In this document: piece after piece, positions 58,622 to 63,254 of the stretch
How positions within the stretch are numbered: the first letter of the stretch is position 1
How the letters are laid out: each line of letters begins with the position of its first letter
Source of the DNA: Methanoregulaceae archaeon
Lineage (GTDB): Archaea; Halobacteriota; Methanomicrobia; Methanomicrobiales; Methanospirillaceae
Direction of reading: 5' to 3'
NCBI GenBank assembly: GCA_021371995.1
Contig: JAJFVA010000010.1
Span: 1-64,000 of the forward strand
Length of the DNA: 64,000 nt
Program-made: the position numbers and the translations under genes
Notes under the pieces: generated by a model
Database searches by the model: none
Told to the model about the DNA's origin: nothing
The model's input: the letters and a program-made list of their open reading frames with translations, nothing else

Positions 58622-59503
58622 ATGGATGAGAACTGGGTTAATGAAAGGGTGCGATTTGAAGTTCCATCCTTAACAGATCTTTCCAGGGAGGGTATCAGTG
58701 CCGTTGACATGCACTGTCATACCAATCATTCTGATGCCCCGGTCAGGGTACCTGATGCTCTCCGTTATGCAGCAGGAAAGGGGATCGGGATAGCAATTAC
58801 CGATCACAACCAGGTCAGCGGCAGCATCGAGGCATTACAGAAAGCGACAACCACCCTTGTTATTCCGGGAATTGAAGTAAGTGCTTTTGATGGTCCGCAT
58901 ATCCTGATATATTTTTACTCGGCAGTGGATCTTGCGGATTTTTACAGAACTTCAATCGAAAAGAAAAAGCAAAATAGCCCGTATCTTGCCATCCGGGCAT
59001 CCACTTTTGATATCCTTGAGATGGCATCGGATTACTCATGTATCTGCAGTGCTGCCCATCCGTATGGGTATCTCCTGTTCAACAAGGGAATCGGGCGATG
59101 TGTTGAACGAAACTATCTGCCGGAAGAGCTGATCTCCCGCTTTGATGCAATTGAGGTAATAAGCGGAGGGATGCCGAGGTCAGAAAATATAAGGGCTGTG
59201 CATATGGCCAGAAAGTATCATCTCGGGTTCACCGGGGGAACCGATGCTCACCTTCTTCATGATTACGGAAGAGTCCTTACCTTTGCTTTTACTGAAACCG
59301 TGGATGAATTCCTGGATGCTGTCAAGGATCACCAGAACTATATTATCGGAAAAGAAAAGAGCCTTTTTGGGAAGGGGCTGATGGGTACCCTGATTGCCCC
59401 CCGTTATTTTCCTTATCTCTTCCCGTCACTTGCAATTCATTACGAGCAGAACGTCCCGAGAATCCGAAGGTTTCTCCTGCGTCAGCAGGGTCAGCAGAAG
59501 TGA
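58622..59503 (+). CDS. PHP-domain phosphoesterase
   Basis: About 293 residues. The PHP metal motifs are present in order: DMHCHTNHSDAP, AITDHNQ, IPGIEVSAFDGPHILIYF, CSAAHPYGY and GGTDAHLLHDYG. The protein probably hydrolyses a phosphoester, possibly a nucleotide. It overlaps dinB by 4 bases, so the two are translationally coupled, which hints at a DNA-repair role but does not prove it. The ATG at 58622 is preferred over a TTG at 58607. Confidence 0.82.
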   Translation: MDENWVNERVRFEVPSLTDLSREGISAVDMHCHTNHSDAPVRVPDALRYAAGKGIGIAITDHNQVSGSIEALQKATTTLVIPGIEVSAFDGPHILIYFYSAVDLADFYRTSIEKKKQNSPYLAIRASTFDILEMASDYSCICSAAHPYGYLLFNKGIGRCVERNYLPEELISRFDAIEVISGGMPRSENIRAVHMARKYHLGFTGGTDAHLLHDYGRVLTFAFTETVDEFLDAVKDHQNYIIGKEKSLFGKGLMGTLIAPRYFPYLFPSLAIHYEQNVPRIRRFLLRQQGQQK

Positions 59504-60684
59504 TGGATAAAAAAATGTCCGATCTCAACAGGCAAACAGGGACGAAGGGGCATGGAGAGGAACGGGTTGTACCGGAGACTCCACAAATCATCATCCATGC
59601 TGATATGGACAGTTTTTATGCATCGATTGAAGCACGGGAGCATCCGGAAATGGCAAAAAAACCAGTGGTGGTAGGAGCGGACCCCCAGGATGGTTTTGGC
59701 AGGGGTGTTGTCTGCACCTGTTCCTATGAGGCGCGTAAATATGGTATTCACTCTGCTATGCCCATCTCCCGTGCATTCCAACTCTGCCCGGATGCATACT
59801 TCCTCTCCCCTGATTTCAGCCTCTATGAAAAGGTTTCTTCCCGGGTGATGGAGATCATGAAACACTACCCGGGGAGATTTGAACAGGCAGGTATCGATGA
59901 GGCCTTTCTTGATTTCACCCATACCGGTTCCTTTGCAAATGCCTGCGAGAGAGCCATGCTCCTCAAAGAGGAAATACGGGTGAGGGAGGGGCTTACCTGT
60001 TCGATTGGTATCGCCACCGGCAAAATCCTTGCAAAAATTGCGTCCGATTTCCGGAAACCTGATGGCCTTACGGCAATTCTTCCAGACACGGCAAGGGAAT
60101 TTCTTGCACCTCTTCCAGTAGAAAAGATACCCGGTGTAGGAAAAAAGACTGCCGGGGACCTGCACGGACTTGGTATCTATACAATCGGGGATCTGGCATC
60201 AGCAGATATCCAGCATCTTATCGGGAAATACGGCCGCTCTGCAGCAGGCCTCCAGTCTATTGCACGAGGAGAAGATTGGAGTGGGATTGAAACACGTCAG
60301 GGATTCTGTTCGGTGAGCCGCGAAACCACCTTTGACCATGATACCTCTGATACCGGTCTCCTCATACTGACGCTCGATACCCTTGCACAAGACCTTTCAT
60401 CCTGGTGTGATAATGAGAGCATCTCTTATCGGACAGTTACGATAAAATTACGATACGAAGGTTTTATCACCCGGACACGGGCCAGGACTTTCGCAAGGCA
60501 TACCACTGGAATGAGAACAATACAGGGATGTGCATGGCAACTCTTCAGAGAATTATATGACGGCAGGAACGTCAGGCTGATCGGTATCAGGCTTTCAGGA
60601 CTTCGGGCAAGTGACAGAAAGCAGAAGAGGATCGGGGAATTTCATTCAACTACCCAGCAGAACGAGTATCGACCTGAAGAGTAA
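59500..60684 (+). CDS. dinB: DNA polymerase IV (Y-family, DinB/Dbh)
   Basis: A 394-residue Y-family polymerase. IIHADMDSFYASIEAREHPE holds the first metal-binding Asp, FEQAGIDEAFLDFT the catalytic Asp-Glu, and SIGIATGKILAKIASDFRKP the palm. The little-finger domain follows. The first 28 residues are an extra charged tail compared with most DinB proteins. No C-terminal PIP box is obvious. Confidence 0.95.
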   Translation: MMDKKMSDLNRQTGTKGHGEERVVPETPQIIIHADMDSFYASIEAREHPEMAKKPVVVGADPQDGFGRGVVCTCSYEARKYGIHSAMPISRAFQLCPDAYFLSPDFSLYEKVSSRVMEIMKHYPGRFEQAGIDEAFLDFTHTGSFANACERAMLLKEEIRVREGLTCSIGIATGKILAKIASDFRKPDGLTAILPDTAREFLAPLPVEKIPGVGKKTAGDLHGLGIYTIGDLASADIQHLIGKYGRSAAGLQSIARGEDWSGIETRQGFCSVSRETTFDHDTSDTGLLILTLDTLAQDLSSWCDNESISYRTVTIKLRYEGFITRTRARTFARHTTGMRTIQGCAWQLFRELYDGRNVRLIGIRLSGLRASDRKQKRIGEFHSTTQQNEYRPEE

Positions 60685-61299: not shown

Positions 61300-62463
61300 T
61301 CACTTTTCTGCTATCATTCGGGAAAGGATCCGTGCACCTTCATAACCAACTGTCCTCTGGCTTCCATGCATCACATCGATAATCCGGATACCGGGGATTG
61401 CTGCGAAGGGGCGCTCGAGCATTCCCCCCAGGATCACGCCGATGCCCTGTTCGGCTAAGGCAGCCTTAATCTCGTGATACGATGGCTCAACAAGGATCCT
61501 GCACTCACTCCCTGCAGCTTCCCTGATCTGCCCTGGCGAAGGGGGTGGAAAGTCAAGGACAATGAGACGGGGAGGGCATGAGAGATCGGAAAGGAACAGG
61601 GAGAGTGCGATCGCCCGCGTGGGACCTGCAAAAATGGCGATGTGAAGTGATGGGTCAATCGAAGGGAGATCGAAGGCATTCTCCCAAGGATTTTCTCCTG
61701 GAGAGAGGGACAGGGCAGAACGGATGGTTTCCAGGAATATTTCAGTTTGCCTTACCCCGATCGGGAGACTGGTGATAAGATATGGTGTGCCAAACTTTTC
61801 CAGGAGCACCTCGGCAGCACCCAGTCCCGAAGCCTCGCATACCACAACATTCAGAGCAACATCTCCCATTCTTGCAAGCTGCTCCCTTTGCAGCCCGGCA
61901 GTGAAGACTGCGTTGACCTTAATTCCTGATGAGGTTATGATATGTCGAATTTCTGTCAGATCGGGACCTGAACGGAGAACCCCAATAAGATTGACGGTTC
62001 GGAAGAGTGAATCCCCGGTGCTTCCGGCAAGGGCTGCGGCAACCTTGGCAAGGCAGTCGCGCAAACCCCCTGCATGATCTCCCTCAAAACCTCCGGAATC
62101 GATGGCGATGGCTTTTGATGCGACAGAGGCCTCCCGGACAGCCGCGCTGACGTCTTCCCCGATAATTCCTGTTGCACAGCAGGAAAGGACAAAGAGCAGA
62201 TCCGGGTGAAATGTGCTGTCAAGTTCAACAATAGCCCTTGTAAGTTTCTCTTCAGCACCAAAGATCACATCGTGCTCATCAAGGCATGTTGAAAATATCT
62301 CGCTTGGCCGGTCCCCCCTCATACCAAGGATATAATTGATGTGGTACACGCAGCCTTTCGGTCCATGCACAAGAATGATTGCATTCTTTATCGTCGAAAG
62401 CGCTTTTATCGTGCCAAAAAGCCTGCACGTACTTCGTGGAATTCTGGATGCTGCCTGCGGCAT
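61300..62463 (-). CDS. Orphan nitrogenase component-1-like protein (NifD/NifE superfamily)
   Basis: A 387-residue member of the nitrogenase component 1 superfamily. STCRLFGTIKALSTIKNAII, LVHGPKGCVYHINYIL, STCLDEHDVIFGAEEKL and LSCCATGIIGEDV align with NifD/NifE blocks, with Cys near 13, 38 and 95-96 placed to hold an Fe-S cluster. No NifH, NifK or cofactor-maturation gene is in this window, and the words do not match CfbD (F430 synthesis) well. Codons upstream of the ATG to a TAG at 62581-62583 remain open and read protein-like (FKDQAAQSSEEEPGGTYC), so the N-terminus is probably longer. Confidence 0.78.
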   Translation of the reverse strand: MPQAASRIPRSTCRLFGTIKALSTIKNAIILVHGPKGCVYHINYILGMRGDRPSEIFSTCLDEHDVIFGAEEKLTRAIVELDSTFHPDLLFVLSCCATGIIGEDVSAAVREASVASKAIAIDSGGFEGDHAGGLRDCLAKVAAALAGSTGDSLFRTVNLIGVLRSGPDLTEIRHIITSSGIKVNAVFTAGLQREQLARMGDVALNVVVCEASGLGAAEVLLEKFGTPYLITSLPIGVRQTEIFLETIRSALSLSPGENPWENAFDLPSIDPSLHIAIFAGPTRAIALSLFLSDLSCPPRLIVLDFPPPSPGQIREAAGSECRILVEPSYHEIKAALAEQGIGVILGGMLERPFAAIPGIRIIDVMHGSQRTVGYEGARILSRMIAEK

Positions 62464-62648
62464 ACAGTACGTTCCCCCGGGCTCCTCTTCTGATGATTGG
62501 GCTGCCTGATCTTTAAACCAATGGATTGCATACCGAGAGGATCTGTGCCAGCATGGTTTCAGGGTCAGGGCGAAGCGGGGATTCTAGCCCTTACGACAGA
62601 GGCAAGTAATGATATTAATGAGAAGCGAGAATAGTAATGACGCGTTGA

Positions 62649-63254
62649 ATGATGAACAGGCGGGTTAATGAGGAGTATATCCTCCTTTTTTTCGAGTTGT
62701 TGTTCCTTGGATTTGCCTACCAGGCAATCGTAATAGAGGATACAACAAGATTTTATGTTGTCATTGCCTCCATGCTCCTCATTCTTGTCCCGCTTCTCGC
62801 GGAAAGGAAGTTTGCTATCAGCCTGCCCGCCGGAACAAAGGCATTGATTGCATTCGCCCTCTTTCTCCATGTTGCCGGGGGAATCAACCGCTGGTACTGG
62901 AAATTTATGCCCTATTACGACAAGTTCGCGCATATCGTCTCCGCCTTCGCTCTCGGGCTGGTAATCTTCTCTTTCTTCCTTCTCCTCGATTACTGGGAGA
63001 TCCGGATGCAGCCTTCCCGTATATATGCCGGGATCTTTATTTTCGTTCTCATATTTGGTGTCAGCTGGGAGATAGGTGAATACTACATCGATGTGCTCGT
63101 AAAATCATCGTATAATAACGGAATTACGGATTCCATCCTTGATGTAATCTCAAATATCATTGGGTCCCTCCTGGCGATTGCATTAGCATGCCATGCACTG
63201 AAGCAGGTGCCCGAGAGTGAATACCCCTCCTCCCTGCTGAAGCCAGGGGTGTAA
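62649..63254 (+). CDS. DUF2238-like (YjdF-type) membrane protein
   Basis: A 201-residue protein with six membrane segments. MPYYDKFAHIVSAFALGLV, GVSWEIGEYYIDVL and NNGITDSILDVISNIIGSLL match the Y-D-K-x-x-H, E-x-x-E and D-x-x-x-D features of DUF2238/YjdF. Function unknown. Divergent from the nitrogenase-like gene. Confidence 0.75.
   Translation: MMNRRVNEEYILLFFELLFLGFAYQAIVIEDTTRFYVVIASMLLILVPLLAERKFAISLPAGTKALIAFALFLHVAGGINRWYWKFMPYYDKFAHIVSAFALGLVIFSFFLLLDYWEIRMQPSRIYAGIFIFVLIFGVSWEIGEYYIDVLVKSSYNNGITDSILDVISNIIGSLLAIALACHALKQVPESEYPSSLLKPGV

Follow-up and report, generated by a model that had tools for sequence, protein, structure and literature searches.

The gene at 61300..62463 on the reverse strand of the window (the whole stretch of 64,000 nucleotides analysed here, which is part of contig C15 of a 1.85 Mb genome of a methane-making archaeon, by its relatives from the order Methanomicrobiales) encodes an orphan nitrogenase component-1 protein, which may represent a hitherto undescribed type of one-subunit enzyme. 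Our preferred explanation, to which we give an even chance, is that it is a single-subunit and probably homodimeric nitrogenase-like reductase, which would carry an [8Fe-9S-C] cluster made by NifB and would be driven by a NifH-type protein.

The gene starts with the ATG at 62463, stops at 61300-61302, and codes for 387 amino acids. An earlier note on this DNA gave its extent as 61300-62554; the open reading frame is there, but the gene itself begins at 62463. There is no in-frame ATG, GTG or TTG upstream of this position. An upstream start that would take in an extra cysteine before Met1 was considered and rejected, given the lack of a start codon and the fact that orthologues start at about the same place. 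The protein matches Pfam Oxidored_nitro (PF00148) over its full length (E = 4e-70, 237 bits). The gene is maintained under purifying selection, because in comparisons with four relatives dN (0.15-0.23) is well under dS (0.83-2.3), with a dN/dS of about 0.1-0.18. The AlphaFold model has a pLDDT of 86.9 and a pTM of 0.85, and the structures closest to it are nitrogenase component-1 subunits, NifEN and DPOR, with TM-scores by query of 0.83-0.85 for the best matches, which are nitrogenase component-1 chains.

The component-1 motifs and Fe-S cysteines described in the earlier note are indeed present, and Cys13, 38, 95, 96, 209 and His366 are invariant in 47 aligned orthologues. All of their codons are on the reverse strand. 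Cys13 (62425..62427) is equivalent to NifD Cys62 and NifE Cys37, a P-cluster-type ligand that is Ser in CfbD; Cys38 (62350..62352, in the motif HGPKGC) is equivalent to NifD Cys88; and in the pair Cys95-Cys96 (62176..62181, in the motif SCC) it is Cys96 that is equivalent to NifD Cys154. Cys209 (61837..61839) is equivalent to NifD Cys275 and NifE Cys250, and is a cofactor-cluster ligand, which is missing in CfbD, NflD/NflK, BchN/B and NifK/N when these are aligned as references. His366 (61366..61368, in the motif MHGS) shares its alignment column with the NHGRS histidine in a NifE of known structure, which is NifD His442 by motif (from a NifD-NifE cross-alignment and profile alignments to NifE), and with a Gln of A. 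vinelandii NifE, which we read from the alignment as Gln419. The L-cluster is held by Gln419 and Cys250 in NifE, and the cofactor by His442 and Cys275 in NifD (PMC13031127). Judged by alignment, the protein keeps the full NifD-type ligand set, namely the three P-cluster cysteines and the equivalents of Cys275 and His442. The protein does not conserve the NifD Gln191/His195 region, so that N2 is not expected to be the substrate.

Phylogenetically, the protein groups with its more distant orthologues from genomes G281 and G409 in a separate clade (support 99/98), which is outside CfbD, NifD/E, NifK/N, NflD/K, and the MarD/K and VnfE/N clades (groups IV and VI). The best placement is on the alpha side (70/92), but the beta side is not rejected (p = 0.28); in an earlier tree that did not include G281 and G409, its sister was a VnfEN-like alpha subunit, with support of 90. 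The earlier note placed the motifs between NifE-like and group IV proteins; the likeness to NifE is borne out, and NifE is the best NCBIfam model. The score against this model (TIGR01283) is nevertheless 120 bits, with a cut-off of 505 (201 bits for G281 and 101 for G409), and the phylogeny that the earlier note proposed as a check rejects a grouping with NifE (AU p = 0.0007). For CfbD the same check is less clear-cut: the protein is outside CfbD in the best tree and CfbD lacks its ligand cysteines, but a sister relation is not rejected (p = 0.31). The score against the CfbD model (TIGR03282) is 73.6 bits, with a cut-off of 268, and the protein has three P-cluster-type cysteines plus the cofactor cysteine, so is outside the two-Cys pattern of CfbD. 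It is also far under the NifD cut-off. We conclude that it is not NifE and most probably not CfbD, because it falls short of the curated cut-off for each and the NifE grouping is rejected by the tree; the suggestion of a stand-alone reductase or scaffold is plausible.

Several other matches were considered as relatives and discarded. Bacterial matches at 25% identity (L108, L109) belong to ordinary heteromeric pairs, L110 is a cfbC-NflD-NflK cluster, and the matches in G254 and G164 are subunits without the cofactor cysteine. At the two last loci (L161 in G254, L162 in G164), NifH and the component-1 gene or genes, including a 416-aa subunit that lacks the cofactor cysteine, adjoin a gene for a SAM-dependent methyltransferase, and L161 also has metal/cobalamin-type transport genes.

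The main rival that remains, which we consider unlikely, is that the protein is a NifE-like scaffold or carrier, passing the L-cluster from NifB to another client, which in methanogens would be the MCR activation complex (McrC/Mmp7). The match to the NifE model is in keeping with this, as are the use of L-clusters and NifB in MCR activation (PMC12176620) and the presence of NifE without NifN in Methanocaldococcus FS406-22 (PMC8809328). It fits less well with the strong His ligand, which in catalytic NifD fixes the cofactor and where A. vinelandii NifE has Gln (PMC13031127). A rather improbable alternative is a CfbD/DPOR-like tetrapyrrole reductase that has only a [4Fe-4S] centre and acts on an F430 or corrinoid intermediate. 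The CfbD sister relation, which is not rejected, and the presence of BchB among the better profile matches favour this, but neither CfbD nor DPOR has the invariant cofactor Cys and His, which play no part in those enzymes.

No NifH-like or partner-subunit gene is present within the window, as the earlier note had said. For the reductase, this does not hold for the genome as a whole, which has a CfbC-type NifH and, on contig C37, NifB. There is one strong match to PF00142 (NifH) in the genome; it scores above the CfbC cut-off, and NflD/NflK come directly after it. This sole NifH is 64 kb from the orphan gene, on the same contig, where CfbC, the NflD/NflK pair and CfbD are found at 124.7-142 kb. 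The genome's true CfbD scores 514 bits and adjoins a gene for a MurF-like ligase, by resemblance CfbE. The genome has four PF00148 proteins, namely the orphan, the adjacent NflD/NflK pair and CfbD, and the search therefore gives neither a NifN nor a NifK partner for the orphan. The orphan is the only one of the four with the cofactor cysteine, and neither CfbD nor NflD/NflK has its full ligand set.

In every Methanomicrobiales genome inspected, cfbC is followed by, or is near, an NflD/NflK pair without the cofactor cysteine (L061, at 124.7-127.6 kb of contig C15 in this genome, G000, and L115, L118, L122, L131, L132, L133 and L138-L141). A pair reported for Methanocorpusculum (PMC3464626) is probably the same one. 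The orphan could be imagined as an alternative alpha subunit with the NflK (or NflD) encoded beside cfbC as its partner: all 61 relatives have NifH, and in those inspected NflD/NflK are close to the NifH of CfbC type. We regard such pairing as very improbable, given that G281 and G409 keep the orthologue without any NflD/NflK.

Orthologues were found in 23 of the 61 genomes searched (this one included), with 46-78% identity, and always as a single gene. The orthologue is carried by 46 named archaeal records, of which five belong to another order; they are mostly MAGs of Methanoregula, Methanolinea, Methanoculleus and unnamed Methanomicrobiales. Its absence from the other 38 genomes sits poorly with a carrier for MCR activation, since the order's methanogens should all require such activation. 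Co-occurrence with NifB is uninformative within Methanomicrobiales, nearly every genome having NifB. A pairing with the VnfEN-like pair of some relatives was rejected, as most genomes have the orphan without such a pair. In several methanogens (L123, L124, L134, L135, L191) a VnfEN-like pair is accompanied by a NifH of its own, outside nif operons in the stretches read; an SCCC motif and the cofactor cysteine are present in the alpha subunit of the pair. Three genomes (L144, L145, L146) encode NifH-NifD-like fusion proteins, about 650-740 aa long.

Synteny is kept within genera only. In the window, the convergent neighbour is a dinB-type DNA polymerase (59500..60684, forward strand), as the earlier note had it, and is syntenic within the genus only. 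The divergent neighbour is a membrane protein (62649..63254, forward strand), which adjoins the orphan only in close relatives; the label DUF2238 given to it earlier was not borne out, there being no Pfam match at E <= 1e-3. Neither gene is part of the orphan's system. The window context was consequently dropped as a functional clue, and no function is read from the dinB, TauE/SafE and membrane protein genes, because none of them adjoins the orphan beyond the genus or a few genera. The orthologue in 11 Methanoculleus-type records is downstream of an aminotransferase gene on the same strand, after a gap of about 65-350 bases, and where the contig is long and intact these two are preceded by same-strand F430 genes. 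This arrangement could be cited for a scaffold and for a tetrapyrrole reductase alike, although no tetrapyrrole genes adjoin the orphan in the window.

The methanogen copies have no NifH or NifB linked to them, but this is not so for distant orthologues in two draft genomes, G281 and G286 (4% contamination each), from a neighbouring class of 59 genomes that we infer, by size and gene content, to be Archaeoglobi. Here the earlier observation that there is no reductase fails, since the orthologue is part of a cassette with its own NifH and NifB. In G281 the orthologue overlaps NifH, which is followed by a convergent NifB, while in G286 orthologue, NifH and NifB follow one another on one strand, with overlapping frames for the first two. 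In the G286 orthologue (L182, 1334-2528) the reading passes from one frame to another at about 1760-1810, through assembly error or decay. The NifH proteins of the two cassettes make up a clade of their own (100/100), and that of G281 is nearest to CfbC by score (357 bits, cut-off 402). In G281, CbiB is directly upstream and CbiX is near, which is a further point for a tetrapyrrole reductase; no tetrapyrrole genes adjoin the orthologue in G286, and such an enzyme would leave the NifB of the cassette unexplained.

G281 has exactly one PF00148 protein and one NifH, and there is no mcrA in it or in G286, which leaves G281 with no partner subunit and no known cluster client. G281 and G409 likewise have no NflD/NflK or other second component-1 subunit, and G281 and G409 both retain Cys13, 38, 96, 209 and His366, with only Cys96 kept of the pair Cys95-Cys96. 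NifB is thought to serve MCR activation (PMC12176620). It is present in 14 of the 59 genomes of the class, and in the two genera of G281 and G286 it occurs only in the two orthologue-bearing genomes (2/8). Of the 14 NifB genomes, 12 were inspected, G281 and G286 among them: five have canonical mcrA and one more is of that genus, G253 and G309 have V/Fe-type nitrogenase loci, and G120 and G130 have a NifEN-like pair beside NifB. NifB thus accompanies a known cluster client wherever inspected, except in G281 and G286, where the sole candidate client is the orthologue. Two genomes of the same class (G248 and G238, family f31) have two divergent mcrA each and no NifB match at E <= 1e-40. The scaffold explanation is weakened by the two genomes that have the orthologue and NifB but no mcrA, and in G281 by the lack of any other nitrogenase-like client.

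The reductase that we prefer would work as follows. NifB would make the [8Fe-9S-C] (NifB-co/L-type) cluster, of which the orthologue itself would be the client, and Cys209 and His366 would hold one such cluster per subunit. The protein would work as a homomer, a reading that we base on the lack of a second subunit in G281 or G409. The P-cluster of nitrogenase uses six cysteines, and a homodimer would offer six (3+3) for one P-cluster-like centre at its interface. Electrons would come from a NifH-type ATPase, dedicated in the Archaeoglobi-like relatives and presumably CfbC in this genome, because it is the only NifH there. Neighbouring F430 and cobamide genes, seen in two lineages, are a hint at tetrapyrrole metabolism, although inconsistent across lineages. 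The logic of the cassette may not carry over to the methanogen copies, because these have no linked NifH or NifB and 38 of the 61 relatives have no orthologue. Nor is NifB in this genome evidence, because methanogens need it anyway for MCR activation (PMC12176620).

If true, a protein of one subunit with all the ligands, together with the cassette of component 1, NifH and NifB in a genome with no other client, would be the smallest natural nitrogenase-like system, and would give a direct test of the origin of the heteromeric enzymes. The protein would also be an added client in the question of why non-diazotrophic archaea retain NifB. A bolder proposal, which we make tentatively and think somewhat doubtful, is that this is a living homomeric branch of the nitrogenase family, intermediate between homodimeric CfbD and the heterotetrameric nitrogenases, in which a single type of subunit would carry an [8Fe-9S-C] active-site cluster as well as a P-cluster-type centre, and which would work with NifH and NifB alone.

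Among known systems, NifE of the NifEN cofactor maturase has the same fold, the three P-cluster-type cysteines, the Cys250 equivalent, and NifB and NifH as partners; the orphan differs in having no NifN, in its score (120 vs 505 bits), in the rejected NifE grouping, and in having His at the place of Gln419. CfbD is alike in being a single gene for a homomeric reductase component that uses a CfbC-type NifH, but it has neither the first P-cluster Cys nor either cofactor ligand, and the orphan is distant from it by score (74 bits vs 268) and is found in a genome that has a true CfbD. Another single-gene component-1 protein in archaea is the NflD that Dos Santos et al. 2012 (PMC3464626) describe as single-subunit, but members of its class (methanogenesis marker 13, now CfbD) lack cofactor ligands and have two Cys. 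In the same survey, single-subunit archaeal members have only the two Cys without cofactor ligands, and NifE-like clades have Cys275 without His442; a single gene with the full ligand set is a combination not listed there. MarDK and VnfEN-like pairs are nitrogenase-like and have the Cys275 equivalent in the alpha subunit, and the methylthio-alkane reductase Mar contains an [Fe8S9C] cluster (PMC12552129), but these are heteromeric pairs, whereas the orphan is in a separate clade without a beta subunit. NifD, finally, differs in that the orphan has only 387 aa, no NifK, no Gln191/His195 region and a score far under the NifD cut-off, but it is alike in that all five alpha ligands (the equivalents of Cys62, 88, 154, 275 and His442) are present in the orphan.
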